DNA of 32,847 nucleotides from Streptosporangiaceae bacterium. Its GTDB lineage: Bacteria; Actinomycetota; Actinomycetes; Streptosporangiales; Streptosporangiaceae. The first letter of the stretch is position 1, and every line of letters begins with the position of its first letter. A program made the position numbers and the translations under genes. Location: the NCBI GenBank assembly GCA_030041135.1, contig JASHOL010000468.1, positions 1-32,847 of the forward strand, read 5' to 3'. The notes below the pieces were generated by a model. That model was given only the letters and a program-made list of their open reading frames with translations. It did no database searches and was not told the origin of the DNA. Positions 1-32,689 of the stretch are shown in pieces.

Positions 1-285
1 GGCCCGGATGCCGCGGCCGCGCTCCTCGCCGACTCCGGCCTGCTGACCGGCGACGACGACGCGATGTCGGGTGTCAGCGCGTGCAGCGGCATGGCCTGCA
101 CCCGGTCGATGGCCGACGTGCGCACGCTCGCCCGGCCGCTCGCCGGTCACCCCAGGACGCACTGGGCGGGCTGCGCCCGCGGCTGCGGCGCGCCGTCCGA
201 CGCCGAACTGGTCGTCGCGGCCGGGCCCGATGAGCTCCTGCTCGACGGCGAGCCCGTGGGAGTTGCCATCGCCGGAGTGTCATGA
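1..285 (+). CDS. cobG: CobG, precorrin-3B synthase (C-terminal part, 5' end outside window)
   Basis: The frame is open from base 1 and ends in TGA overlapping the next start (ATGA). CobG is the sirohaem/4Fe-4S monooxygenase of the aerobic cobalamin pathway that turns precorrin-3A into precorrin-3B. The visible tail carries two paired-cysteine motifs typical of sulfite/nitrite-reductase-like proteins: ACSGMAC followed by an ADVR segment, then GCARGCG (Cx3C). The first pair is spaced Cx4C, whereas the family norm I recall is Cx5C, so one residue appears to be missing. Position directly before cobH and cobIJ supports the call. Only about 94 residues are present, so the N-terminal domains cannot be judged. 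Confidence 0.88.
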
Positions 286-977
286 CCAGGACAAGCTCGC
301 CGACCGGGACAGGCAGTTCCGGCGGGACAGGCAGTTCCGGCGGGACGGCGCGGCTGGACTACCAGCGGGACGGCGCGCTGATCTACCGCGAGTCGTTCGC
401 GATCATCCGGGCCGAGGCTGACCTGAGTGCGATCCCGGCCGACCTCGAACCCGCGGTGGTCCGGATGATTCATGCCTGCGGGATGACCGACTTGCCCGCC
501 GACGTCGCCTGGTCGCCTGGCGCAGGCGCTGCTGCCCGCACGGCTCTTGCCGCGGGCGCGCCGATCCTGTGCGACTCGGTGATGGTCGCCGGCGGAATCG
601 CCAGGTCCCGGTTGCGCGCCGGCAATCCGGTCGTCTGCACGCTGCGCGACACCAGCGTGCCTGACCTGGCGGCGCGCCTCGGCACCACGCGGTCGGCTGC
701 GGCGGTCGACCTGTGGCGCGACCAGCTCGACCGGTCGGTCGTGGCGATCGGCAACGCCCCGACCGCGCTGTTCCGGCTGCTGGAGCTGCTCGAATCCGGC
801 GCACCGCGGCCCGCTGCGATCATCGGCATCCCGGTCGGCTTCGTCGGCGCGGCCGAGTCCAAGCAGGCGCTGGCGTCCCGGTCCTTCGGCGTGCCTTACC
901 TCACCGTCCACGGCCGGCGCGGCGGCTCAGCGATGACGGCCGCCGCGGTGAACGCGCTGGCCGGAGGTCCCGAATGA
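282..977 (+). CDS. cobH: CobH, precorrin-8X methylmutase
   Basis: Encodes 231 aa. CobH (CbiC family) moves the C-11 methyl group to C-12, converting precorrin-8X to hydrogenobyrinic acid in the cytoplasm. The protein has the expected core: YRESF near the start, the RMIHACGM segment holding the conserved histidine, and [10 protein letters not shown] and GNPVVC in the middle. Length is close to the usual 205-220 aa. The excess is an N-terminal Ser/Gly/Thr-rich stretch with an imperfect duplication (GTGSSG then GTGSSG). The ATG overlaps the cobG stop by four bases, and the stop overlaps the cobIJ start by four, so the three genes are translationally coupled. Confidence 0.95.
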
Positions 978-2578
978 GCCGCCGCCCAGGGCAGGTCACC
1001 GGCGTCGGTGTCGGGCCGGGTGATCCCGACCTGATTACGGTCAGGGCGGCGCGGCTCATCACGGCGGCCGACGTCATCGCCTATCACTGCGGGACGCACG
1101 GCCGCAGCATCGCGCGCGCGGCCGCCGAGCCCTACCTGCGCGCCGGGCAGACCGAGGAGGTGCTCAGCTACCCGGTCACCACCGAGCCCGCGGATCATCC
1201 AGGCGGGTACGAGGGCGCGATGGCCGAGTTCTACGCCGAGGCGGCCGAGCGGCTCGCGCGCCATCTTCGGGCCGGCCGGGACGTGGTAGTTCTCTGCGAG
1301 GGCGACCCGTCCCTGTACGGTTCTTACCTGCATCTGCACGAGCGCCTCAGCGGGCAGTTCCGGTCGGTGATCGTGCCGGGCATCTCCTCGGTGTCGGCCG
1401 GTGCGGCGGCCGCCTCGGTTCCGCTCGTGCTCCGCGACGAGGCGCTGACTGTGCTGCCGGGCACGCTGCCCGGCGACGACCTCCGGGCCCGGCTGGCCGG
1501 CACCGACGCAGTGGCCGTGCTCAAGCTCGGCCGGATGTTCGGCAAGGTGCGCTCCGCGCTGGAACAGGCCGGGATGCTCGACCGAGCGCTGTACATCGAG
1601 CGAGCCGGCACCAGCCGCGAGCGGGTGCAGCCCCTGGCCGGAGTGGACCCGGCCGGGGTACCTTACATGTCGCTCGCGCTGGTACCAGGCCGCGGGCGCT
1701 CGCGGGAGGATCTGGGGGGCCGGCCTCCCGGCCAGCGCGGCGAGCCCGTAGCGCCGGGGGTCGTGATCGTAGGGCTCGGGCCAGGCGATCCCGCCTGGCT
1801 GACACCCGAGGCAGGCGCGGCCATCGCCGAGGCCACGGACCTGGTGGGCTACCGGCCCTACCTCGCGCGGGTCCCGGTGCGGCCTGGGCAGGCCCGGCAC
1901 GCCTCGGGCAACACGGTCGAGGCCGACCGGTCGGCGCTGGCGCTCGATCTGGCTGCCGACGGCCGCCGGGTCGCGGTCGTGTCGTCCGGCGACCCTGGCG
2001 TGTTCGCGATGGCGGCTGCCGTCCTCGAGCAGGCGGTGTCCGGCGGCGAGCGGTGGGCCGGAGTACCGGTGACCGTCCTGCCGGGCGTCACCGCCGCGCA
2101 GGCCGTCGCGGCCAGGGCAGGCGCGCCGCTCGGGCACGATTACTGCGTGCTCAGCCTGTCGGACCGGCTGAAGCCGTGGCCGGTGATCGCCGAGCGGGTC
2201 GAGCACGCGGCGGCGGCCGACCTGGTGCTGGCGCTCTACAACCCGGCCTCCAGGTCCAGGACCTGGCAGCTGGCGGCCGTTGCCGACCTGCTCCTGCGCC
2301 ACCGCAGCCCGTCCACGCCAGTGATAGTCGGCCGGGCGGTGGGCCGCGACTGCGAGCAGCTGCGGGTGATCACGCTGGCCGAGCTCGGCGCCGCGGAGGT
2401 CGACATGTCCACGCTCGTCATCGTCGGCTCCAGCGCGACCAGGGTGGCGGAGCGCGACGGGCGGGCGGTCGTGTTCACGCCGCGCCACTACGGGGAAGCC
2501 GGCGCAGCAGCCAGCTCTCGGCATCTGCGGCGCACGAACAGCGAAGCGCGCGGGCCAGCTCAGGACGGCGCACCATGA
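974..2578 (+). CDS. cobIJ: CobI-CobJ fusion: precorrin-2 C20-methyltransferase / precorrin-3B C17-methyltransferase
   Basis: Encodes 534 aa and two SAM-dependent tetrapyrrole methylases in one chain, a common arrangement in actinomycetes. Residues about 1-245 are CobI, with [21 protein letters not shown] and VPGISS. Residues about 265-510 are CobJ, with [29 protein letters not shown] and LYNPAS. A short Gly/Arg-rich linker joins them. The ATG at 974 is chosen because it overlaps the cobH stop (ATGA) and precedes the first methylase strand by a few residues; the longer ORF from 713 runs inside cobH. The last 30 or so residues are a non-canonical tail that overlaps the 3' end of cobK on the other strand by 104 bases. 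Confidence 0.95.
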
Positions 2579-3242
2579 CGACGGTGATGCCGAGGTCGCG
2601 GGCGGCTGCCAGCTTGCCGGCCGTCAGCTCGCCGCCACTGTTCTTGGTCACCAAGACGTCGATCCGGTGCTGGCGCATCAGCGCGAGTTCGGCCGCGGCG
2701 GCGTAGGGGCCGCGGGCCAGGATGACCTCGCGCAGCGGCGGCATCGGCCCGTCCGGCGGGTCCACGCAGCGGATCAGGAACCAGGTGTGCCGCAGCGGCG
2801 CGAACGCCGCCAGGCCCTGCCGTCCGGTCGTGAGGAACACCCGGCGTCCGAGGGCCGGCAGCAGGTGCGCGGCCTCGGTCAGCGAGCCGACCTCTCGCCA
2901 GTTGTCGTCGTCGCCTGGCTGCCACGGCGGGCGGACAACCCGCAGCAGCGGAATGCCGGTGAGGCCGCAGGCCGTGGCGGCGTTGGCCGACATGCCCGCG
3001 GCGAACGGATGCGTCGCGTCGATTACCGCGCTGATCTGCTGCTGCGTCAGCCACGCGGCCAGGCCCTCGGCGCCACCGAAGCCGCCGACGCGAACCTCGC
3101 CGGCCGGCAGCGCCGGGTCGCGGACACGGCCGGCCAGCGACGACACCACTCGCAGGCCTGGCCGGGCGGCTAGGCGCGAGGCCAGATCGCGCGCCTCACT
3201 GGTGCCGCCGAGGATCAGGACCGCCGGGCGGGCCGCGGTCAC
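2475..3242 (-). CDS. cobK: CobK, precorrin-6A reductase
   Basis: Encodes 255 aa. CobK reduces precorrin-6A to dihydroprecorrin-6 (precorrin-6B) with NADPH. Family marks seen are LILGGTSEAR at the N-terminus, DATHPFA, a TTGRQG segment and TKNSGG near the C-terminus, in the standard order and at standard length. The GTG start at 3242 overlaps the cobF stop (GTGA), so it is the last gene of the leftward cobL-cobM-cobF-cobK unit. Its 3' end lies inside the 3' end of the convergent cobIJ. Both frames are intact there, and no terminator is visible between the two units. Confidence 0.95.
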   Translation of the reverse strand: MTAARPAVLILGGTSEARDLASRLAARPGLRVVSSLAGRVRDPALPAGEVRVGGFGGAEGLAAWLTQQQISAVIDATHPFAAGMSANAATACGLTGIPLLRVVRPPWQPGDDDNWREVGSLTEAAHLLPALGRRVFLTTGRQGLAAFAPLRHTWFLIRCVDPPDGPMPPLREVILARGPYAAAAELALMRQHRIDVLVTKNSGGELTAGKLAAARDLGITVVMVRRPELARALRCSCAADAESWLLRRLPRSGAA

Positions 3243-4036
3243 TGCGGCTCCTCGGCCGGGCGAGCGGCCTCATCTGCGGGCCGGGTGGTTCGGCGCAGCA
3301 GGTAGGTGTCCATGATCCAGCCGTGCCGCTGCCTGGCCGCTTCGCGCTCGGCGACGATGCGGCCGGCGACGTCGGCGACCCGCCCGGCGATCAGGATCTC
3401 GTCCGGCGTGCCGACGTAGGCTCCCCAGTAGATCTCGTCGTCGCCGTCCGCGACGCTGAACGCCGTCCGCGCGTCGAGCATGACCACGACATCGTCGCTG
3501 TGGGCGGGGAAACCCTCGTCCGCCAGCCTCCGGCCGGTGGTGATGTGCAGCGGACGGCCGGTCCTGGTGAGGCTGACCCGGTGCTGGGCGGCCAGCGCCT
3601 GCACGCTGCTGATGCCGGGGATCACCCGGAGTTCGAAGCTGACGCGGCCGCGCGCCCGCACCTCGGCCAGCACGTGCAGCGTGCTGTCGTACAGCGCCGG
3701 GTCGCCCCAGGCCAGGAATACGCCCCGGCCGTCCTCGGCGAGTTCGTCGGTCAGCAGCCGCTCGTAGATGTCCGCCCGGCGGGCGCGCCAGTCCTCGACC
3801 GCCGCGGCATACTCGGCCGCGTCGCGGTCGCGCTGCACATCGGCGGCGGTGACGAACCGGCCGCCGCCGGTGACGTACCGATCGCAGATCTGCCTGCGCA
3901 CGTCCGTAAGGCTTTCCCTGTCCTCGCCCTTGTCCAGCATGAACACCACGTCGGCGGCGTTCAGCTCGCTGACGGCCTGGACGGTGACGTGCTCGGGATT
4001 GCCTGACCCGATGCCCACGACGGAGATGGTTCTCAT
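3239..4036 (-). CDS. cobF: CobF, precorrin-6A synthase (deacetylating)
   Basis: Encodes 265 aa. CobF methylates C-1 of precorrin-5 with loss of the acetyl group, a step specific to the aerobic pathway, so its presence fixes the pathway type. The tetrapyrrole methylase fold is marked by VVGIGSGNPEHVT, FLAWGDPALYDST and VIPGISSVQ. The family-typical C-terminal region around EIYWGAYVGTPDEIL is present. The ATG at 4036 overlaps the cobM stop and the TGA overlaps the cobK start, consistent with one leftward transcript. Length matches the family. Confidence 0.95.
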   Translation of the reverse strand: MRTISVVGIGSGNPEHVTVQAVSELNAADVVFMLDKGEDRESLTDVRRQICDRYVTGGGRFVTAADVQRDRDAAEYAAAVEDWRARRADIYERLLTDELAEDGRGVFLAWGDPALYDSTLHVLAEVRARGRVSFELRVIPGISSVQALAAQHRVSLTRTGRPLHITTGRRLADEGFPAHSDDVVVMLDARTAFSVADGDDEIYWGAYVGTPDEILIAGRVADVAGRIVAEREAARQRHGWIMDTYLLRRTTRPADEAARPAEEPQ

Positions 4037-4800
4037 GGCGCGCTCCTGTTGACGGGCAGGCCTCGGTCACGGCCCGCCGAGTACAGGTGACTCTCGTCGA
4101 AGCACGACTGCGCCAGCACCCGCCCGACAACGATGATCGCCGTGCGGCGGATACCAGCGGCCCGGACCCGGCTCGCGAGGTCGCCCAGGCTGCACCGGAT
4201 GACCTCCTCGTCCGGCCAGCTCGCCCTGGCCACGACCGCCACCGGGCAGTCCGGGCCGTAGCGCGGCAGCAGATCCGCGGCGACCTTGTCGATGCTCTGC
4301 ACCGCCAGGTGCAGCACGAGGGTGGCGCCGGTGACGGCGAGCGAGGCGAGGTCCTCGCCTGGCGGCATGGGCGTGGCCCGGGCGGCGGCCCTGGTCAGCA
4401 CGACCGTCTGCCCGACGCCCGGCAGCGTCAGCTCCTGCCGCAGCGCCGCGGCCGCGGCCGCGAACGCCGGGACGCCGGGAACGATCTGCCACGGCACGCC
4501 GGCGGCATCGAGCCGCCTGGCCTGCTCGGCAACGGCGCTGAAGATCGACGGATCGCCACTGTGCAGCCGGGCGACGTCCTCGCCGGCGCGGTGCGCGGAC
4601 ACCAACCGCGCGGTGATCGCATCGAGATCCAGGTCTTTGGTGTCCACGAGCCGCGCGCCCGGCCTGGCCCCGGCCAGCACCTCCGGCGGCACCAGGCTGC
4701 CGGCATACAAGACCACCGGCGCGGCCGCGATGATCCGCTGGGCGCGCAGGGTCAGCAGGTCGGCCGCGCCGGGACCCGCGCCGATGAAGTAAACGGTCAT
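4033..4800 (-). CDS. cobM: CobM, precorrin-4 C11-methyltransferase
   Basis: Encodes 255 aa and methylates C-11 of precorrin-4 to give precorrin-5. Sequence marks are VYFIGAGPGAADLLT at the N-terminus, VLYAGSLVP, RLHSGDPSIFSA, VPGVPAFAAAAA and a terminal VGRVLAQ block. The ORF track extends this frame to 5565, but that extension lies inside cobL in another frame. The ATG at 4800 is chosen because it starts exactly at the methylase fold and overlaps the cobL stop as ATGA. It sits between cobL and cobF in the leftward unit. Confidence 0.95.
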   Translation of the reverse strand: MTVYFIGAGPGAADLLTLRAQRIIAAAPVVLYAGSLVPPEVLAGARPGARLVDTKDLDLDAITARLVSAHRAGEDVARLHSGDPSIFSAVAEQARRLDAAGVPWQIVPGVPAFAAAAAALRQELTLPGVGQTVVLTRAAARATPMPPGEDLASLAVTGATLVLHLAVQSIDKVAADLLPRYGPDCPVAVVARASWPDEEVIRCSLGDLASRVRAAGIRRTAIIVVGRVLAQSCFDESHLYSAGRDRGLPVNRSAP

Positions 4801-6026
4801 GTCCTGGTCACCTGCCACTGCGTGACCGGGAGGGCGGGACGCCAGGTGGTGAAGCCGCCAAGCGGCTCCCGGTAGCTGATGCCTACCTTGACCAGCTCTC
4901 CCCCGAGTTCCTGCTGCCAGCCCTGCAGCAGCGCCTCCGACTCGATCGTGACGGCGTGCGCCACCAGCCGGCCGCCTGGCCGCAGCCGCTCCCAGCAGGC
5001 CGGCAGCACCCCGCTGGCCGTGAGCCCCCCGCCGATGAACACCGCATCGGGGTCGGGCAGCCCGTGCAGCGCGGCCGGCGCCGCGCCCGTGATCACCCGG
5101 AGGCCGGGCACGCCGAGGGCGGCCGCGTTGCGGCCGGCGCGTTCGGCCCGATCGGGCCTGGCCTCGATCGCGACGGCACGGGCAAGGGGATCGGCGCGCA
5201 TCCACTCGATGCCGACACTGCCGCTGGCGGCGCCGACGTCCCACAGCAGTGCGCCCGGCCCTGGCCGCAGCACGGCCAGCGCCAGCGCCCGTAGCTCGCG
5301 GCGGGTGACTTGCCCGTCGGTCTCGTAGGCGCTGTCCGGCAGGCCAGGCACACGGCCGGCGACTGCGCCTGGGTCCTGGACGGCCGTCACGGCAAGCACG
5401 CACAGGTCCGCCGATCGGCCCGTCGTTAGCTCCACGGCCTGGCCCGGCGGGCTTACGCGCTCGTCGGGTGCCCCCAGCTGTTCCAGCAGGATCAGCTCGC
5501 TTGCGCCCCAGCCGCGATCGGTCAGCACGCGCGCCACCTCGGGCGGGGTCCGGCGGTCGCGGCACAGCACGATCAGCCGGGCACCGGGCTGCATGGCGGC
5601 CAGCGTCGCCTCCGGCCGCTGGTTAACCAGCGACACGACCGTAATCTCCTGCTGGGGCCAGCCCAGCCGTGCGCAGGCCAGCGCTACGGAGGACACCGCG
5701 GGCAGGATGCGCACCGCCGCCGGGCCGAGCCGCCGGCTCAGCGTCGCGCCGATGCCGTGCAGTGTCGGGTCGCCGCTGGCCAGGACGCACAGGCCGGGAT
5801 TCTGGCCTACGAGCTCGTCCAGGTTCTCCAGCAGCGGGGACGGCAGCGGAACGCGCCGCGCAGCCAAGTCAGGCAGCAGCGCAAGCTGACGCTGGCTGCC
5901 GGCGATTACGGTCGCCGCGGTCAGGGCGTCACGAGCGTCCTGCGTCAGCGACGGCCAGCCGCCCGCGCCGATGCCGACGACCGTGATCTGGCCAGGCTGG
6001 CTCTGGCTGCGCTCAGCTGAAGTCAT
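4797..6026 (-). CDS. cobL: CobL, precorrin-6B C5,15-methyltransferase (decarboxylating)
   Basis: Encodes 409 aa with two domains. The N-terminal half is a CbiE-type methylase (ITVVGIGAGGW, VLASGDPTLHGIG, LPAVSSVALA). The C-terminal half is a CbiT-type Rossmann methyltransferase/decarboxylase (LLWDVGAASGSVGIEW, AVFIGGGLT). Together they methylate C-5 and C-15 and decarboxylate the C-12 acetate to give precorrin-8X. The ATG at 6026 is preferred to the in-frame ATG at 6098 because it puts the fold about 14 residues from the start; neither has a strong ribosome binding site. It is the first gene of the leftward unit and diverges from the riboswitch-controlled operon. Confidence 0.94.
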   Translation of the reverse strand: MTSAERSQSQPGQITVVGIGAGGWPSLTQDARDALTAATVIAGSQRQLALLPDLAARRVPLPSPLLENLDELVGQNPGLCVLASGDPTLHGIGATLSRRLGPAAVRILPAVSSVALACARLGWPQQEITVVSLVNQRPEATLAAMQPGARLIVLCRDRRTPPEVARVLTDRGWGASELILLEQLGAPDERVSPPGQAVELTTGRSADLCVLAVTAVQDPGAVAGRVPGLPDSAYETDGQVTRRELRALALAVLRPGPGALLWDVGAASGSVGIEWMRADPLARAVAIEARPDRAERAGRNAAALGVPGLRVITGAAPAALHGLPDPDAVFIGGGLTASGVLPACWERLRPGGRLVAHAVTIESEALLQGWQQELGGELVKVGISYREPLGGFTTWRPALPVTQWQVTRT

Positions 6027-6120
6027 CGACCGCACGGTATCGCGGCCGGCGTCCGCATGCGCGGCGGGCCGTGACCGCGAACCGCCGACAGGCACCATGC
6101 GAGCTTTTCGCCGGATCAGC

Positions 6121-6149
6121 TTGACCCTCTGTCGCCGCCCGCTTACAGT
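6121..6149 (+). promoter_or_regulatory. Predicted housekeeping promoter driving the riboswitch leader
   Basis: TTGACC and TACAGT are separated by 17 bases, a good sigma-70/HrdB-type spacing. Five of six -35 bases and four of six -10 bases match consensus. Transcription would begin near 6156, just upstream of the riboswitch aptamer. Inferred from sequence only. Confidence 0.55.
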
Positions 6150-6169
6150 ATCGCTGCCCCGGCTATCTA

Positions 6170-6275
6170 CGGCCTTGGGCCGATGCAGAACCAGCGAAGT
6201 CCGGTGAGATCCCGGCGCTGTCCCGCAACGGTAGTCCCCCCTCGGGGGCGAGCCCGGTCGCCTGCTCTGCGTCGC
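6170..6275 (+). promoter_or_regulatory. Cobalamin (adenosylcobalamin) riboswitch aptamer
   Basis: The conserved core is readable: CCGGTGAGATCCCGG followed by GCTGTCCCGCAACGGTAGT. A short CCCCC-CTC-GGGGG hairpin (6236-6248) follows, then the B12-box-like GAGCCCGGTCGCCTGC, matching the known GAGYCAGGA-ACCTGC consensus. It lies on the + strand about 60 nt before the import gene btuC, which fits its role of switching off corrinoid import and late synthesis when cobalamin is plentiful. The outer boundaries are approximate because the P1 strand was not folded. Confidence 0.9.
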
Positions 6276-6284
6276 CGAAGTTGG

Positions 6285-6326
6285 TCCTCGGAGTAAGGAC
6301 GGCTTGTGCGTCCTCCGAGGAGGGAG
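6285..6326 (+). promoter_or_regulatory. Riboswitch expression platform: hairpin reaching the btuC Shine-Dalgarno
   Basis: TCCTCGG (6285-6291) pairs with CCGAGGA (6315-6321), and AGGAC (6296-6300) pairs with GTCCT (6310-6314), giving a 7+5 bp hairpin with a small bulge. Its 3' arm runs into the purine-rich GAGGAGGGAGGG ribosome binding site ahead of the GTG at 6336. There is no U-tract, so this looks like translational control rather than termination. That is an inference from pairing alone. Confidence 0.55.
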
Positions 6327-6335
6327 GGCGCACGA

Positions 6336-7501
6336 GTGCGCGAGGACGATACTCGGCCCAGGCCGGCGCAGCCTGACACCGGTAGCGGCGGATCACTCAC
6401 GGCACGGGCAGCGGCCGTGCCAAAGCTGGCCCCGGCTGAACCCCTCACGCCGCGACCAAGGCCGCGCGGCCGGCGGCGGGATCGCGTCCCCCTGTCGATC
6501 GTGCTGCTCGCGTGCCTGGTGTTTTTGCTGACGACGATGACCGCGGGCGTCGCCATCGGCTCGGTGCCGCTCAGCCCGGCGCAGGTCTGGCATGTCGTCG
6601 TGGCCGGCCTGGCTGGTCACGCGCCGAACACCGTGGCCGGCATCATCGTGTGGCAGATCCGGCTGCCGAGAGTCCTGCTCGCAGCTGTCGTCGGGGCGGC
6701 GCTGACCACTGCGGGCGCGGTCGTCCAGGTTCTGGTCCGCAACGCCCTCGCCGACCCGTTCCTGCTCGGCGTGTCGTCGGGTGCCAGCGTCGGTGCCACC
6801 GCCGTGCTGCTGCTCGGGGCGTTCGCATCGCTCGGCCAGTGGGCGATCTCGGTGGGCAGTGTGCTTGGCGCCCTCGCCGCGATGGCAGCCGTGTTCCTGG
6901 TGTCCCGCACCGGATCCTCGCTGTCACCTACGCAGCTGATCCTGTGCGGCGTCGTGATGTCGGCCCTGTTCGAGTCCGTGACCAGCTTCCTGATCTTCCG
7001 CGGCAACCCGCAGGCGACGCAGTCGGTGCTGTTCTGGCTGCTGGGATCGTTCGGCCTGGCCAGCTGGAATCAGCTGCCGATCCCGGCGGTGGCGCTGGCC
7101 GCGGCGATGGTCTACCTGCTCGCGCAGGGCCGTACGCTGAACGCCCTGGCCATGGGGTCCGAGCCAGCCGCGGCCCTGGGCGTCGACGTGCACGCGCTGC
7201 GCCGGAACCTGTTCGTAGTGACCTCGCTGATGGCCGGCGTGGCCGTCGCGGTCAGCGGCATCATCGGGTTCGTCGGGCTGGTCGTGCCGCACATCGTCCG
7301 CCTCATGGTCGGCTCCGACCACCGCCGTGTACTGCCCACGGGCGCGCTGTTCGGTGCCAGCTTCATGGTCCTCGGCGACCTGCTCGCGCGGACCATCGTC
7401 GCCCCGCAGGAAATGCCGATCGGTGTGATCACCGCGTTCATCGGCGCACCCACCCTCATCGTGCTGATCCGCCGCCGCCCCTACCTCTACGGCGCGACGC
7501 A

Positions 7502-7505
<4 letters not shown>
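6336..7505 (+). CDS. btuC: BtuC-like corrinoid ABC transporter permease (FecCD family)
   Basis: Encodes about 389 aa from the GTG at 6336, which follows a strong GAGGAGGGAGGG ribosome binding site; the track start at 6306 lies within the regulatory hairpin. FecCD permeases form the membrane channel of B12 and siderophore importers. After a charged, Pro/Arg-rich N-terminal extension there are about ten hydrophobic segments. Family motifs include IRLPRVLLAAVVGAAL, NPLADPFLLG-type (here NALADPFLLGVSSGAS), GxxxxGxIGFVGLVVPH and a C-terminal IGAPTLIVLIRR. Substrate identity rests on the upstream cobalamin riboswitch and the following cobQ/cobD. It overlaps btuD by four bases. Confidence 0.88.
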
Positions 7506-8338
<833 letters not shown>

Positions 8339-8354
8339 CCCGAGAGGAAACCCG

Positions 8355-9428
8355 ATGCACCACTACGCCCGCAGACCCGTTCTCGCACTCCGGCAGCGTG
8401 CCTGGCGCGCCGTGGCGCTGCCTGCCGCGTTGCTGGCCGGGGTCAGCGTCCTCGCCGCCTGCGGCAGCAGCCCGTCCGGATCGTCCATCTCCGCCAAGGA
8501 CGGTACGTACCCGGTGACGGTGACGAGCTGCGGAACCGCCGAAACCTACACCAAGGCCCCGACCCGGGCCGTGGCCAACGACATCAACACCACCGAGGAC
8601 ATGCTCGCGCTGAGCCTGGAGCCGCGCATGGTCGGCACGTTCGGCGCGGTCGGTGACGGGCCGGTCAGCCAGCCGATCCCAGCGCAGTACCAGGCTGGCT
8701 TCCGAGAGGTCCGAGACGCATCGCCAGACAACTACTTCACGCTCGAGCAGCTGGTCGGGCTGCATCCGGATTTCCTGTTCGCCGGATGGAACTACGGGCT
8801 GCAGACGGGCACCAACCTGACGCCTCAGTACCTGTCCAAGTTCGGCATCAAGACCCTGGTGCTGGCCGAGTCGTGCGCCTGGGTCCAGCACAAGACATCC
8901 GTCAGCATCGACGACACCTATACCGACCTGCGCAACCTCGGCGCAATCTTCGGAGTTCAGTCCCGCGCCGACAAGGTGATCGCCAGCATGGAGGCACAGG
9001 TGGCAGCGGTCAGGGCCAAGATTGCCGGCCTGAAGCCGATCACGGTCTTCGACTACGACAGCGGCGAGCCCGCGCCCTTCACCGGGCCAGGACTAGCCAT
9101 GATCAATGCCCTCATCACGCTCGGCGGGGGGACCAACATCTTCGGGTCGCTGAAGCAGAGCTGGACCTCAGTTTCCTGGGAGCAGGTCGTGGCGGCGCAG
9201 CCGCGGTGCATCATCATCAACGACTACGGCACGCCGACGGCAGCGCAGAAGGAGAAGTTCCTGGAGACCTTCAGCGCGAGCAAGAACCTGCCGGCCGTGA
9301 AGAACCACTGCTTCCTGGTGCTCAGCTACGACGAGGTCACCCCCAGCCCCCGCAACGCCGAGGCGGTCAAGCAGATAGCACAATGGCTGCACCCGTCGGC
9401 CTTCGGCCTGCCCGCCGACGGATCCTGA
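8355..9428 (+). CDS. btuF: BtuF-like corrinoid-binding lipoprotein
   Basis: Encodes 357 aa. An N-terminal signal ends in a VLAAC lipobox with Cys36 as the predicted lipidated residue, so the mature protein is tethered outside the membrane. The body fits the helical-backbone (TroA/BtuF-like) binding-protein class: PTRAVA near the start, [16 protein letters not shown] in the first lobe and a [11 protein letters not shown] segment in the second. A GAGAGG ribosome binding site lies 16 bases after btuD. The riboswitch suggests a corrinoid ligand, but siderophore or other cofactor binders share this fold. Confidence 0.82.
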
Positions 9429-9475
9429 GCACGCCGACGGATTCGGCCGGTAGCGGAAGGGAGCGCGAGTCCCCG

Positions 9476-11008
9476 GTGACAACTGGTTCGGTGCTGGTGG
9501 CCGGCACGACGTCCGACGCGGGCAAGTCCGTGCTGACCGCCGGCATCTGCCGGTGGCTGGTGCGCCAGGGTGTCCGGGTAGCGCCGTTCAAGGCGCAGAA
9601 CATGTCCAACAACTCGGTCGTGGCGCCCGACGGGGCGGAGATCGGCCGGGCACAGGCGATGCAGGCGGCGGCGTGCGGCGTGCCCGCCGAGGCCGCCATG
9701 AACCCGGTGCTGCTCAAGCCGGGGAGCGACCTGACCAGTCAGGTGGTGCTGCTCGGCCGGGCCGTCGGCGACACCGCAGCCGACGGGTACTGGCGCGCCG
9801 GGGCGGGCCGCGAGCGGCTGATGGCCACGGTGCTCGATGCCTACGACGACCTGCGGTCCCGCTTCGATGTTGTCGTCTGCGAGGGTGCCGGCTCGCCGGC
9901 CGAGATCAACCTGCGCCGCGGTGACCTGGCCAACATGGGCTTGGCCAGGGCCAGGGACCTGCCGGTGATCGTCGTGGGCGACATCGACCGCGGCGGCGTC
10001 TTCGCCGCCCTGTACGGCACGCTCGCGCTGCTGGAGCCGGCCGACCAGGCGCTGATCAGCGGCTTTGTCGTCAACAAGTTCCGGGGTGACCAGTCGCTGC
10101 TGAAGCCCGGCCTGACCGATCTCACCGCGCGGACGGGCAGGCCGGTTCTGGGCGTCGTGCCCTACCTCACCAGGACCTGGATCGATGCCGAGGACGCCGT
10201 CGCGACCGAGAGTGGCTACGGGCCGGACGACAAGCCCGGCAGCGATCGGTCGCTGCGCGTGGCGGTGATCCGGCTGCCGAGGATCTCCAACTTCACGGAC
10301 GCGGACGCGCTCGCGCTGGAGCCGGGCGTCTCCGTCCGGTTTGTCACCTCGGCCGCGGCGCTGGAGGACGCCGACCTGGTGATCGTGCCGGGAACGAAGG
10401 CAACCGTCGCCGACCTGGCCTGGCTGCGCGCGCGACGGCTGGACGACGCGCTGGCGAGACGAGCCAAGGCCGGACGGCCGATACTCGGCATCTGCGGGGG
10501 CTACCAGATGCTCGGAACCGTCATTCACGATGAGGTCGAGAGCCGGGCAGGCACCGTCCGAGGGCTCGGCCTGCTGCCGATCGAGACACGCTTCGCACCG
10601 GCCAAGACCCTGCGGCGGCCGTCCGGCTATGCGGGCCAGACCCCGGTCGCCGGGTATGAGATCCACCACGGCACGGTCGAGGTCACCGACGGCCGGCCAT
10701 GGCTCACGACCCGCCCGGCCGACGAGGCTACGGCGCTGGACGGCTGCCAGGCTGGCGCCATCGCCGGCACCCTCTGGCACGGGATCTTCGAGAACGACGC
10801 GTTCCGCCGGTACTACCTGGCCGACATCGCCAGAGTAGCCGGACGAGACTTCGTTCCGGCGAAGGGCACCTGTTTCGCGGCGGCCAGGCAGGCTCAGTTC
10901 GACGCACTCGCCGACGCCATCGGCAGCAGCCTCGATACCGGCGAACTGCTTGGCCTGATCGAGAACGGGCCCGGCCGCGACCTGCCCGTCCTGCGGTCCT
11001 GGCTGTGA
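9476..11008 (+). CDS. cobQ: CobQ, cobyric acid synthase (glutamine-hydrolysing)
   Basis: Encodes 510 aa from GTG 9476, preceded by GGAAGGGAG. It amidates positions b, d, e and g of adenosylcobyrinic acid a,c-diamide using glutamine and ATP. The N-terminal dethiobiotin-synthetase-like domain begins with [11 protein letters not shown] and includes [21 protein letters not shown] and [10 protein letters not shown]. The C-terminal type-1 glutaminase has ICGGYQMLG with the nucleophilic cysteine and a YEIHHG histidine motif. The track start at 8786 reads through btuF and was rejected. Its stop overlaps the cobD start by four bases. Confidence 0.95.
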
Positions 11009-12015
11009 CCAGCAACCGGCCTGCCGGCCATGCTCCCGGTCACGACGCGCGGCGCGCCCGTCGCGCGCGCCGGGACTGGCCGCTGGCGGGCGGCTTGATC
11101 GGCGGCGCTGTCGCTGACGCCATCGCCGGGGACCCGGCCCGCGGTCATCCGGTCGCGCTGTTTGGCCGGCTCATGACCGCCGTCGAGCAGCGCGTCTATG
11201 CTGACCGCGAAGCGCCGGGCATCGCCTACGCGGCCGGAGGGGTCATCCTCGGTGCCGGGCCGCTGCTCGTTGCTGCCCGCGTCACCCGCGCCAGTCCCGC
11301 CGGGCGAGCCGCCGTCACCGCGGCAGCTGCCTGGGCCGCGATCGCCTCTCGTTCCCTTTCCGGCGCTGCCCGCCAGATCGCGACCGCCCTCGGCGCCGGG
11401 GACCTGGCCAGGGCCCGCGGCGCGCTCCCTTGCCTGTGCGGCCGTGACCCGCAGGACCTGGACTGCGCAGGCATCACCAGAGCCGTCGTCGAGTCTGTAG
11501 CCGAGAACACCAGCGACGCCATCGTCGCGCCGCTGATCTGGGGAGCGCTGGCGGGCCCGGCCGGCCTGTCCGGGTATCGGGCGGTGAACACCCTCGACGC
11601 CATGGTCGGGCATCACTCGCCGCGCTATGAGCGGTTCGGGCGGACATCGGCGCGCCTCGATGACGTCGCCAACTGGATCCCGGCACGGATCACCGCGCTG
11701 CTCGCGGCCGCCTGCTCACCCGCGGTCGGCGGGCAGCCCGCGTCTACCTGGCAGATGGCACGCGATTACGGCCCGCGCCACCCGAGCCCGAACGCCGGCT
11801 GGTGCGAGGCAGCGTTCGCCGGCGCGCTGGGCGTCCGGCTTGGCGGGGTGCTGAGTTACTCAGGCCGCACCGAGCACAGACCGGAGATCGGCACCGGACG
11901 CCCACCGCAGGCCGCAGACATCGCCAGGGCAGTCCGTCTCAGCCGCGCGGTCACGGCCAGCGCCACGGCTCTAGCTGCGGCGGTGGCTGCCGCGAGCCCG
12001 GCGGGCCGGGGCTGA
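11005..12015 (+). CDS. cobD: CobD/CbiB, adenosylcobinamide-phosphate synthase
   Basis: Encodes 336 aa from a GTG overlapping the cobQ stop. CobD is the membrane protein that joins cobyric acid to aminopropanol (or its phosphate). Landmarks are the N-terminal [18 protein letters not shown] block, [42 protein letters not shown] and [17 protein letters not shown], all standard for the family. Several alanine-rich hydrophobic segments fit an integral membrane protein. The first 25 residues are Arg-rich and extra to the family core. It closes the riboswitch-controlled operon. Confidence 0.94.
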
Positions 12016-30046: not shown

Positions 30047-30096
30047 GCTGGCCGCGGCGCCGACGACTGAGGCTGGCCGCGGCGCCGACGACCGAG
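30047..30096. repeat. 25-bp direct tandem duplication upstream of the UGSC gene
   Basis: GCTGGCCGCGGCGCCGACGA followed by CTGAG occurs at 30047-30071 and again, with one T-to-C change, at 30072-30096; a third copy begins (GCTGG). It ends just before the GGAGG ribosome binding site of the selenoprotein gene. Confidence 0.9.
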
Positions 30097-30113
30097 GCTG
30101 GAGGTAACCAGGC

Positions 30114-30656
30114 ATGGGCGCCGGACCAGAGCGGCTGCTCGATCCGACTGGCTTTGACGAGCGAGCCGTCGACACGACGCTCGCGCCCCGGCCCGCGAGG
30201 TTGCACGGGCTCACCGTCGGCCTGCTGGAGAACACCAAGGTGAACGCCGCCCTGCTCCTGTCCAGCATCGGGCGCGAGCTGCAGCGCGAACACGCAGTCC
30301 GGGCCGCGCTGATGTTCACGAAGAGCTACTTCGGCACGCCGACCGAGGAGAGCCTGATCCAGCGCATTCTGCACAGCTGCGATTTCGTGGTGGCGGGCAT
30401 CGGTGATTGAGGCTCATGCAGCGCGGCCAGTTTGGCCGACGGGATCCTACTGGAGCGGGCGGGAGTGCCTGCCGTGAGCATCTGCACGGAACCGTTCGTG
30501 CCGGCCGCCCAGGCGATGGCCAGGGTGTACGGCTTCCCGGCCTACCAGTTCGCCACCATGCCGCATCCGCTGGCCAGCCTCGACGAGGCCCAGATCCAGG
30601 CTCGCGCGCACGACCTGATGCCCAGGGTGCTGCGTATTCTCGGCGGGGAGTCCTGA
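30114..30656 (+). CDS. UGSC-family selenoprotein, in-frame TGA (30408-30410) read as selenocysteine
   Basis: ATG 30114 follows GGAGG by nine bases. The frame reads to TGA at 30408 and continues without indels to TGA at 30654. With codon 99 as selenocysteine (U) the product is 180 aa. The N-terminal part (LLDPTG, GLLENTKVNAALLL) and the centre (CDFVVAGIGD-U-GSC) match my memory of the UGSC (seleno)protein family, which has Cys or Sec at this place. After it come LLERAGVPAVSICTEPFVP and the MPHPLASLD segment, also family-like. UGSC forms a UxxC redox motif like that of GrdB-type reductases. A SECIS-like hairpin follows the TGA. Function is unknown. The alternative is a nonsense-mutated pseudogene; SelA, SelB and tRNA-Sec are not in this window. 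Confidence 0.85.
30422..30441 (+). promoter_or_regulatory. Bacterial SECIS-like element for UGA recoding
   Basis: CGCGGCCA (30422-30429) pairs with TGGCCGACG (30433-30441) as 8 bp with one bulged A, leaving the loop GTT. The loop G is 20 bases after the TGA. A G in the first two loop positions and a loop 16-37 bases from UGA are the known bacterial SECIS requirements, and both are met. Folding was done by eye. Confidence 0.65.
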
Positions 30657-31763
30657 ATGACCGGCCCGCCGCCCGCTGGCCCTCCACTCGCCGACGGCGC
30701 AGGGATCCGCGCGGCCATGGAGTATTACGCGGACCGGGAGTGGACCGACGGGCTGCCGGTGGTGCCGGTGACCGAGTCGTACCTGGCCGAGTTCCTCGCC
30801 AGGACGAGCATGCATCCCGACGACGTCGTGCTCGCGATGCCGCACCTGAACCGCGAGTGCACGGTCAGGCTCGCCGCCATCAACGCGGCCATGGCCGGCT
30901 GCCTGCCCGACTACTTCCCCGTCGTGCTGGCCGCCTGGGAAGCCCTCGGCGGCGACGGCTACCCGGTCAGGGGAATCTGGCAGAGCACGACCGGCACGGC
31001 GCCGCTTCTGGTCGTCAACGGCCCGGTCCGGGTGCGGATCGGCCTGAACTGCGCGGGCAACGTCTTCGGCTCGGGCTTCCGGGCGAACGCCACGATCGGC
31101 CGGGCCGTCCGGCTTACCGCCATCAACGTATTCGGCCTGCACCCGCACCTGCTTGACCAGGCGACTCAGGGCACGCCGGCCAAGTACACCGCCTGTATCG
31201 CGGAGAACGAGGAGCAGAGCCCGTGGTCGCCGCTGCATGTCGAGCACGGCTTCGATCCGGCTGACAGCGCCGTGACCGCGATCGTCATCAGGTCCTGCGT
31301 ACACATCGAGGCCCGTCACACGCAGGTCCCAGAGCAACTCGCCATTGACATCGCCGGCACGATCAGGCGCACCGGCGCCCTCGTTCACGAGACCATCAGC
31401 GCGCTGGTGGTGCTCGGACCCGAACACGCACGGCTGTTTGCCGGCGCAGGCTGGAAGAAGGACGACGTGCGGCAGTTCATCTACGCCCACGCCGCGAACA
31501 CCAGGGCCGACCTGGCGGCGGTGGGCAAGGACGCGGTCTCGCGGCACAGTCACTGGCGGCTGCCCGCCGACCACCCGGACGCCATGCCGGACCTGGCCAG
31601 TAGCGGCGAGAACCCCGATCTCGTGCCGGCCCTGAATTCCCCGGCCGCGGTGCAGCTCATGGTGGCCGGAGCCGACAACGCCGGCGTCTCCGCGGTGATC
31701 GAGACCTTCGGGCCGCGCGGCGGGCCGCCGTCCATCGCAAGGGTTGGTGGCATCGATGACTAG
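30657..31763 (+). CDS. Conserved protein of unknown function, operon partner of the UGSC selenoprotein
   Basis: Encodes 368 aa. Its ATG directly abuts the selenoprotein stop (TGA-ATG) and its stop overlaps the next gene, so the three are almost certainly co-transcribed and coupled. I do not recognise a named domain. There is no signal peptide or membrane helix. Notable features are YADREWTDGLPVVPVTE near residue 25, NRECTVRLAAINAAMAGC, GLNCAGNVFGSGFRANATIGRAVRL, CIAENEEQSPW and an HANTRADL-like C-terminal helix. Five or more cysteines occur, in the regions around REC, AGC, NCAGN, TAC and RSC, which could serve redox or metal roles with the selenoprotein. That link is inference from gene order. 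Confidence 0.85.
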   Translation: MTGPPPAGPPLADGAGIRAAMEYYADREWTDGLPVVPVTESYLAEFLARTSMHPDDVVLAMPHLNRECTVRLAAINAAMAGCLPDYFPVVLAAWEALGGDGYPVRGIWQSTTGTAPLLVVNGPVRVRIGLNCAGNVFGSGFRANATIGRAVRLTAINVFGLHPHLLDQATQGTPAKYTACIAENEEQSPWSPLHVEHGFDPADSAVTAIVIRSCVHIEARHTQVPEQLAIDIAGTIRRTGALVHETISALVVLGPEHARLFAGAGWKKDDVRQFIYAHAANTRADLAAVGKDAVSRHSHWRLPADHPDAMPDLASSGENPDLVPALNSPAAVQLMVAGADNAGVSAVIETFGPRGGPPSIARVGGIDD

Positions 31764-32046
31764 CGACGGCGCGCCAGGCACTCCCGCCGGAGCAGGTGCC
31801 GCGGATGCGGCCGGGCTGGAGACCGCGTTCCGGCGCTTCAGGGACATGCTTGCCTCTGACGGCTACACCCTCAGCTGGTCGGTGAACGGCCGGGACCGGG
31901 TTGTCGTGCAGATCGAGGCCGGGCCCGGCGCCTGCGCCGACTGCCTCGTCCCGCTGCCGGTCATGGAGGCCATCATGTCCGACGCGCTCGCCCCGACCGG
32001 CTACGCGCTCGACCACGTCGTCCTGCCGCCGCAAGCAGGCCACTGA
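31756..32046 (+). CDS. Small CxxC protein of unknown function in the UGSC operon
   Basis: Encodes 96 aa from ATG 31756, overlapping the previous stop by eight bases; TTG 31744 and GTG 31747 are in-frame alternatives. After a Gly/Ala-rich N-terminus comes a compact alpha/beta sequence: FRRFRDMLASDGYTLSW, a strand VVVQIEAG, then GACADCLVP with a CxxC pair, and a helix VMEAIMSDALAPTGY. The strand-CxxC-helix order vaguely recalls NifU C-terminal-like folds, but the match is weak. A thiol or metal-handling partner of the UxxC selenoprotein is possible. I do not recognise the family. Confidence 0.75.
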   Translation: MTSDGAPGTPAGAGAADAAGLETAFRRFRDMLASDGYTLSWSVNGRDRVVVQIEAGPGACADCLVPLPVMEAIMSDALAPTGYALDHVVLPPQAGH

Positions 32047-32125: not shown

Positions 32126-32689
32126 GTGCAGCACGTCATCGCCCTCGCGCGGACCGCGATCACCGTGCGGCACTGGTTCGAGGTCGACCTCGAGGACTCG
32201 TCCATGGAACACGGGGCGCGGATCGAGCTGCGCGAGCTGGCCGCGCATCCGCGACGCGGCAGCGAATCGGCCGCCCAGCTGCTCGCGGTCGACCGCCCGC
32301 TGTGGCGAGCCGACCTTTTCGACCGGCTTGCCGACGCTCCCGGCAGTTTCGGCGTAGCCCATTACCACCCGAATTTCGTAGGGAACGAGCCGTGTCCCAG
32401 GGCATGGGATCCGCAGCTGAGCGCTAGTCCGTGGGATTGGCTCGGCGATCAGCTCACCGGGCTTGGCAACGGGACCTGGCAGCTCGACCAGGATGACGCC
32501 CGCGAGCTGAGCGGACTGGCACCGACTGTCGTCGCGCTAGCCCAGCAGTTCGGGCCGGGCCGCTGCCGCTCCGCCGCGCAGTGTCACGGGCTGACCCGCG
32601 ACGTCCAGGACGCGGTACGGTTGATGATCTCCGAGCTGCGCCGCCCCGACCTGCTGGACAGCGACTGGGTTTCGCCCTGGGCGGTCTGA
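32126..32689 (+). CDS. Unidentified cytoplasmic protein
   Basis: Encodes 187 aa from GTG 32126, with GGAGG ten or so bases upstream. No signal peptide, membrane segment or catalytic motif that I recognise. Conserved-looking pieces are FEVDLEDSSMEHGARIELRELA, AHYHPNFVGNEPCPRAWDP and SASPWDWLGDQL. Amino-acid use and third-position GC resemble neighbouring genes, so it is likely real. It starts 79 bases after the UGSC operon and may or may not belong to it. Confidence 0.65.
   Translation: MQHVIALARTAITVRHWFEVDLEDSSMEHGARIELRELAAHPRRGSESAAQLLAVDRPLWRADLFDRLADAPGSFGVAHYHPNFVGNEPCPRAWDPQLSASPWDWLGDQLTGLGNGTWQLDQDDARELSGLAPTVVALAQQFGPGRCRSAAQCHGLTRDVQDAVRLMISELRRPDLLDSDWVSPWAV

Follow-up and report, generated by a model that had tools for sequence, protein, structure and literature searches.

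The window, the whole 32,847-nucleotide stretch of DNA that was analysed, is one entire contig (G000:C467) of a draft host genome and very probably carries the gene for a UGSC-family selenoprotein. Comparative evidence strongly supports the insertion of selenocysteine (Sec) at residue 99, which we regard as almost certain. The gene is followed directly by the gene for a partner protein, to which the UGSC family is nearly always linked. The features under discussion are as follows.

30100-30105, plus strand: ribosome binding site GGAGGT, 8 nt 5' of the ATG, read straight from the sequence.
30114-30656, plus strand: probable UGSC-family selenoprotein gene, 180 residues with Sec as residue 99, ATG at 30114 and stop TGA at 30654-30656.
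30408-30410, plus strand: in-frame TGA, very likely read as Sec; codon 99, U99 of the U-G-S-C motif, with C102 as its UxxC partner.
30422-30441, plus strand: probable bacterial SECIS hairpin, with CGGCCA at 30424-30429, loop GUU at 30430-30432 and UGGCCG at 30433-30438.
30657-31763, plus strand: partner protein gene, 368 aa, its ATG directly after the UGSC stop (TGAATG).
31744-32046, plus strand: small conserved ORF of about 100 aa with a CxxC motif, 3' of the partner gene, no Pfam match.

The open reading frame at 30114-30656 contains a single internal TGA, and translation through it gives ...VVAGIGD-U-GSCSAAS.... The initial annotation had described two same-frame ORFs split by the TGA at 30408, and the six-frame ORF list contained the same pieces, 30114-30410 (98 aa) and 30432-30656 (74 aa, TTG start), served by one ribosome binding site. 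A 25-bp direct repeat (2.2 copies, 96% match) at 30047-30101 ends just 5' of this site. The TGA occurs at the same codon in the three nearest orthologues, which were assembled independently (L025, L029 and L026; 91, 82 and 75% identity), and in further orthologues within the same genus and family, indicating that it is neither a chance occurrence nor a point error; the next two orthologues (60 and 58% identity) have TGC. The dN/dS ratio was 0.18 5' of the TGA and 0.12 3' of it against L025, and 0.35 and 0.37, respectively, against L026. Judged by these ratios, both sides of the TGA are coding and under purifying selection.

The read-through product matched Pfam PF24696 over residues 8-177 (E=1.3e-61, 208 bits against a cut-off of 25), bearing out the earlier claim of a UGSC match on both sides of the TGA, and it scored 150.7 bits against a cut-off of 125 with NCBIfam NF041046 (UGSC_fam). 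Membership in the family thus follows from scores above the profile cut-offs across the whole domain and from the presence of the U99-G-S-C102 motif. Of 42 UGSC members sampled from the phylum, 26 have Sec (TGA) at residue 99, 15 have Cys and the remaining one has Met; D98, U/C99, G100, C102, D109, E114, H151 and P152 were nearly invariant. Wherever the motif is intact (41 sampled relatives), the site is Sec or Cys. The alignment of Cys or Sec at residue 99, which the initial annotation had put forward as a check, therefore held in 41 of the 42 relatives, the exception being the Met form. This form, at L059:1477-3195, is a degenerate 573-aa fusion of UGSC and partner with Met for Sec/Cys99 and Ser for Cys102, and is apparently one from which the redox pair has been lost. 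On the UGSC tree, whose bootstrap had not fully settled, the residue must have switched between Sec, Cys and Met five times or more. Besides the window gene, the host genome contains a second TGA-type UGSC gene and a Cys-type one.

The window's closest relatives in the sample were Streptosporangiaceae assemblies. The literature describes a family (PF24696, NF041046; the "UGSC-containing protein" of PMC2398784 and PMC13188914) with the same U-G-S-C motif and with both Sec and Cys forms. Actinobacterial UGSC was reported earlier from Geodermatophilaceae with a UAG codon (PMC5330540); the window member, with a UGA codon and Streptosporangiaceae relatives, differs from the known family in nothing essential. 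The gene therefore adds a member to a known, biochemically uncharacterised selenoprotein family, of which selenoproteins, including actinobacterial ones, are already known. The initial annotation also held that standard gene callers would miss the catalytic centre; the ORF list does split the gene, but the model NF041046, "UGSC family (seleno)protein", already names such genes.

A hairpin was found downstream of the TGA at 30422-30441, with two outer CG pairs added across a bulge, a folding energy of -11.9 kcal/mol and a loop that begins 19 nt after the UGA. The published bacterial SECIS model (PMC13188914) specifies a spacing of 16-37 nt, a G in the first two loop positions, a loop of 3-9 nt and a minimum free energy of -7.5 kcal/mol or below, and the window hairpin lies within all of these limits. 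The six inner pairs and the loop G were present at the exact offset in 24 of the 26 TGA genes and in none of the 15 Cys genes; the two TGA genes without the hairpin are remote forms (L058 and L066). In a second gene set, fetched later from the same taxonomic family, all 21 TGA genes and none of the 22 Cys genes had the hairpin. Eighteen of these 21 TGA genes were new, and the other three (L217, L218 and L225) appear to be the contigs L026, L025 and L029.

Covariation was examined in 17 distinct TGA sequences. Ten cells were altered on both sides with the pair kept, and the covariation score exceeded those of all 500 shuffles and of all slid controls. A compensatory change from G-C to C-G was found in the stem of L212. 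The protein sequence fixes much of the stem, so that about 5-7% of the draws in synonymous resampling formed the hairpin; hairpin energy alone was not significant (z = -0.6 on 40 nt). Since the amino acids account for part of the stem, we place weight on the tracking of the hairpin with TGA and on covariation, not on energy. An Rfam search of the region gave chance matches only. The window's Sec clade encodes Ser-Leu (AGT TTG) just after the motif, whereas the Cys forms encode Thr-Val or similar residues and lack the loop G; this codon-wise comparison of TGA and Cys genes reveals a constraint of the SECIS hairpin on the protein.

The machinery for Sec insertion was also found. The host draft genome (6.58 Mb, 528 contigs, 91.9% complete, 7.9% contaminated) contains a tRNA-Sec with anticodon UCA (71.4 bits) together with selA, selB and selD, the full set for which the initial annotation had proposed a search. 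The host selA consists of two fragments at contig ends (L129:1-479 and L130:3-481, on contigs C418 and C291) that overlap with 81.5% DNA identity, which probably means that two strains are mixed in the assembly or that it contains two selA copies. Given this overlap and the contamination, the contigs may not all derive from a single strain, which leaves the selenoprotein conclusion unaffected. The tRNA-Sec was present in all 18 sampled TGA-UGSC genomes and in the three genomes of L025, L026 and L029 (21/21), and in 3 of the 11 genomes where every UGSC gene detected lacks the TGA. The selA gene was found in 17 of the 18 TGA-UGSC genomes; the exception, the draft G036, nonetheless carries tRNA-Sec. 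The tRNA-Sec of one genome lies <500 bp from the partner gene (L181, G124:C39:3897-3988).

Two other readings of the TGA were weighed. A pseudogene, nonsense mutation or sequencing error that leaves only a 98-residue fragment would fit the two pieces in the standard ORF list and the draft state of the assembly, but it is extremely improbable: the TGA is kept in independent assemblies of several related species, which disposes of the sequencing error that the initial annotation had named as grounds for refutation; the codons 3' of it are under purifying selection (the ratio of 0.12 against L025); a compensatory change keeps the hairpin; and the TGA stands at the same codon in two of the three paralogues of the host genome. 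Read-through of the UGA with another residue, such as Trp inserted by near-cognate decoding, has in its favour that the identity of the inserted residue is a prediction from sequence. It too is very improbable, if marginally less so, as the aligned relatives show Cys and not Trp, and as the SECIS hairpin and tRNA-Sec co-occur with the TGA. Sec at residue 99, as first proposed, agrees with relatives that have only Sec or Cys there, apart from the degenerate Met form, and with a covarying SECIS element that tracks TGA and not Cys. U99 and C102 would then form a UxxC redox centre.

We examined the predicted fold of UGSC. An AlphaFold2 model built from 42 sequences had a mean pLDDT of 92.5 and the element order E-H-E-H-E-H-E-H-E-H, with a strand at 91-97, Sec99, and a helix at 100-115. 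The better Foldseek matches were only Rossmann-like or flavodoxin-like and were modest (best E 4e-4, TM about 0.5), and none of them had a thioredoxin fold. The prediction for UGSC is thus a small Rossmann-like domain of the parallel alpha/beta type, in which Sec99 sits at a helix N-terminus and Cys102 one turn on. A "likely Trx-like fold" was suggested for UGSC in 2008 (PMC2398784), and the model and its matches do not support that suggestion.

UGSC is related in sequence to GrdB, the selenoprotein B of glycine/betaine/sarcosine reductase (PF07355, TIGR01917, TIGR01918). NCBIfam GrdB models were matched by 21 of the 42 members (best 1.2e-6), and a UGSC profile search found actinobacterial GrdB-like selenoproteins with a TGA of their own (motif UGTGTRC), Sec being aligned on Sec. 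A profile comparison of UGSC with the GrdB-like proteins (hhalign) gave a probability of 86%, with E=5e-6 for a single pair. In both families the aligned Sec motif (UGSC or UGTGTRC) is followed by E-x-x-G-[IV]-P and HP motifs, whereas UGSC lacks the roughly 330-residue N-terminal part of GrdB. The window protein scored 16.2 bits against a cut-off of 602 with the full-length GrdB model, which places it outside that family, and the Sec domain alone is common to both. We read these alignments as homology between the region around the UGSC Sec and the Sec domain at the C-terminus of GrdB, a shared domain and not GrdB membership. No PF07355 gene was found in the host genome. The small D-proline reductase protein PrdB likewise has a UxxC motif, and 6 of the 42 members, the window protein not among them, weakly matched the PrdB model TIGR04483 (best E 0.0018). 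Thirteen GrdB-like proteins of the phylum (L097-L109) have a UGTGTRC or UGTGTRS motif whose U is encoded by an in-frame TGA. The initial annotation had mentioned neither the GrdB relation nor the partner gene.

The partner family accompanies UGSC with few exceptions. A partner relative adjoins UGSC on either side, or is fused to it, at 39 of 41 informative loci; at two Nesterenkonia loci the partner lies 4.6 kb from UGSC. Among 297 genomes of the phylum, a partner of about 350 aa was present in all 22 with UGSC over the cut-off and in 2 of the 275 others. It also adjoined UGSC at all nine plasmid loci inspected, including those of haloarchaea and Proteobacteria. These loci show genetic linkage, from which we infer that UGSC works together with its co-encoded partner, presumably through physical interaction. 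The UGSC literature, in its available excerpts, mentions no linked partner gene and describes a fusion to an "Unknown_1" domain (PMC2398784); this domain may be the partner. Searches of the partner against Pfam, NCBIfam and the PDB, also with 40 members, yielded nothing consistent, and hhalign comparisons with GrdB and with UGSC showed no relation. Cyanuric acid hydrolase and class I fumarase were weak fold matches to the partner model (TM 0.2-0.27, E above 0.004) and were judged not meaningful as relatives. Locus L162 (G184:C272) carries several partner-family copies, and no UGSC gene was detected in that genome, G184.

On strong comparative evidence, the UGA at 30408-30410 is decoded as Sec99 by SelB and tRNA-Sec(UCA), guided by the hairpin at 30422-30441. 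In the mechanism that we propose, the partner would hold the substrate, a small metabolite; the Sec99 selenolate would attack it, and Cys102 would resolve the product as an Se-S bond. Thioredoxin and thioredoxin reductase would then recycle the Sec99-Cys102 pair as in glycine reductase, where electrons get to GrdB via thioredoxin (PMC3091704, PMC10298544). We give a GrdB-like mechanism for a two-protein, thioredoxin-fed UGSC-partner reductase a little less than an even chance. The partner resembles neither GrdB nor any other family searched, which counts against a glycine-reductase-like reaction. Somewhat more tentatively, UGSC and its partner could constitute a new two-component reductase of aerobic bacteria and haloarchaea, in which a free-standing GrdB-type Sec domain and a partner of no known family together carry out the reductive cleavage of a small organic compound, thioredoxin supplying the electrons; if true, this would place glycine-reductase-like chemistry outside anaerobes.

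The protein might instead be a selenoprotein of another kind, a thioredoxin-like oxidoreductase of the general thiol-disulfide or peroxide type by fold and activity, with the partner as its protein substrate or regulator. This rival draws on the fold proposed and the fusion to an unknown domain described in PMC2398784, and on the UxxC motif that such enzymes share, but we consider it unlikely, though far less so than the two readings of the TGA above: the best PDB matches of the confident model are Rossmann- or flavodoxin-like and none is a thioredoxin, the sequence resembles the GrdB family, and UGSC is surrounded by genes of metabolism and solute transport, not stress genes. The near-perfect linkage to one partner family together with the homology to the GrdB Sec domain gives a concrete, testable starting point that deserves follow-up.

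The wider neighbourhood of the pair was inspected. A trxB gene, in one case with trxA, lies beside or close to the pair on Arthrobacter, Roseovarius and Variovorax plasmids (three of the nine plasmid loci); in the chromosomal neighbourhoods sampled from actinobacteria, the queries used gave no trxB. Other neighbours include CoA transferases, dehydrogenases, isocitrate lyase-like enzymes and solute transporters, and this metabolic and transport setting suggests the catabolism of a small organic compound. Relatives of the small CxxC ORF at 31744-32046 adjoin the partner in L025, L027, L028 and L030 and lie near it in L034 and L037. A second small ORF 3' of the partner, at 32126-32689, has no Pfam match, and its order with the first is kept in L025. 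The host's Cys-type UGSC paralogue (L126, G000:C171) lies in a cluster with relatives of aldehyde dehydrogenase and LLM-type oxidoreductase, and similar clusters with aldehyde dehydrogenase, zinc-type alcohol dehydrogenase and amidohydrolase occur in Microbacteriaceae and Nesterenkonia (L031-L037). Elsewhere in the window, the region at 282-12015 has, by eye, the look of a cluster for cobalamin (precorrin) biosynthesis and metal/B12-type ABC transport.
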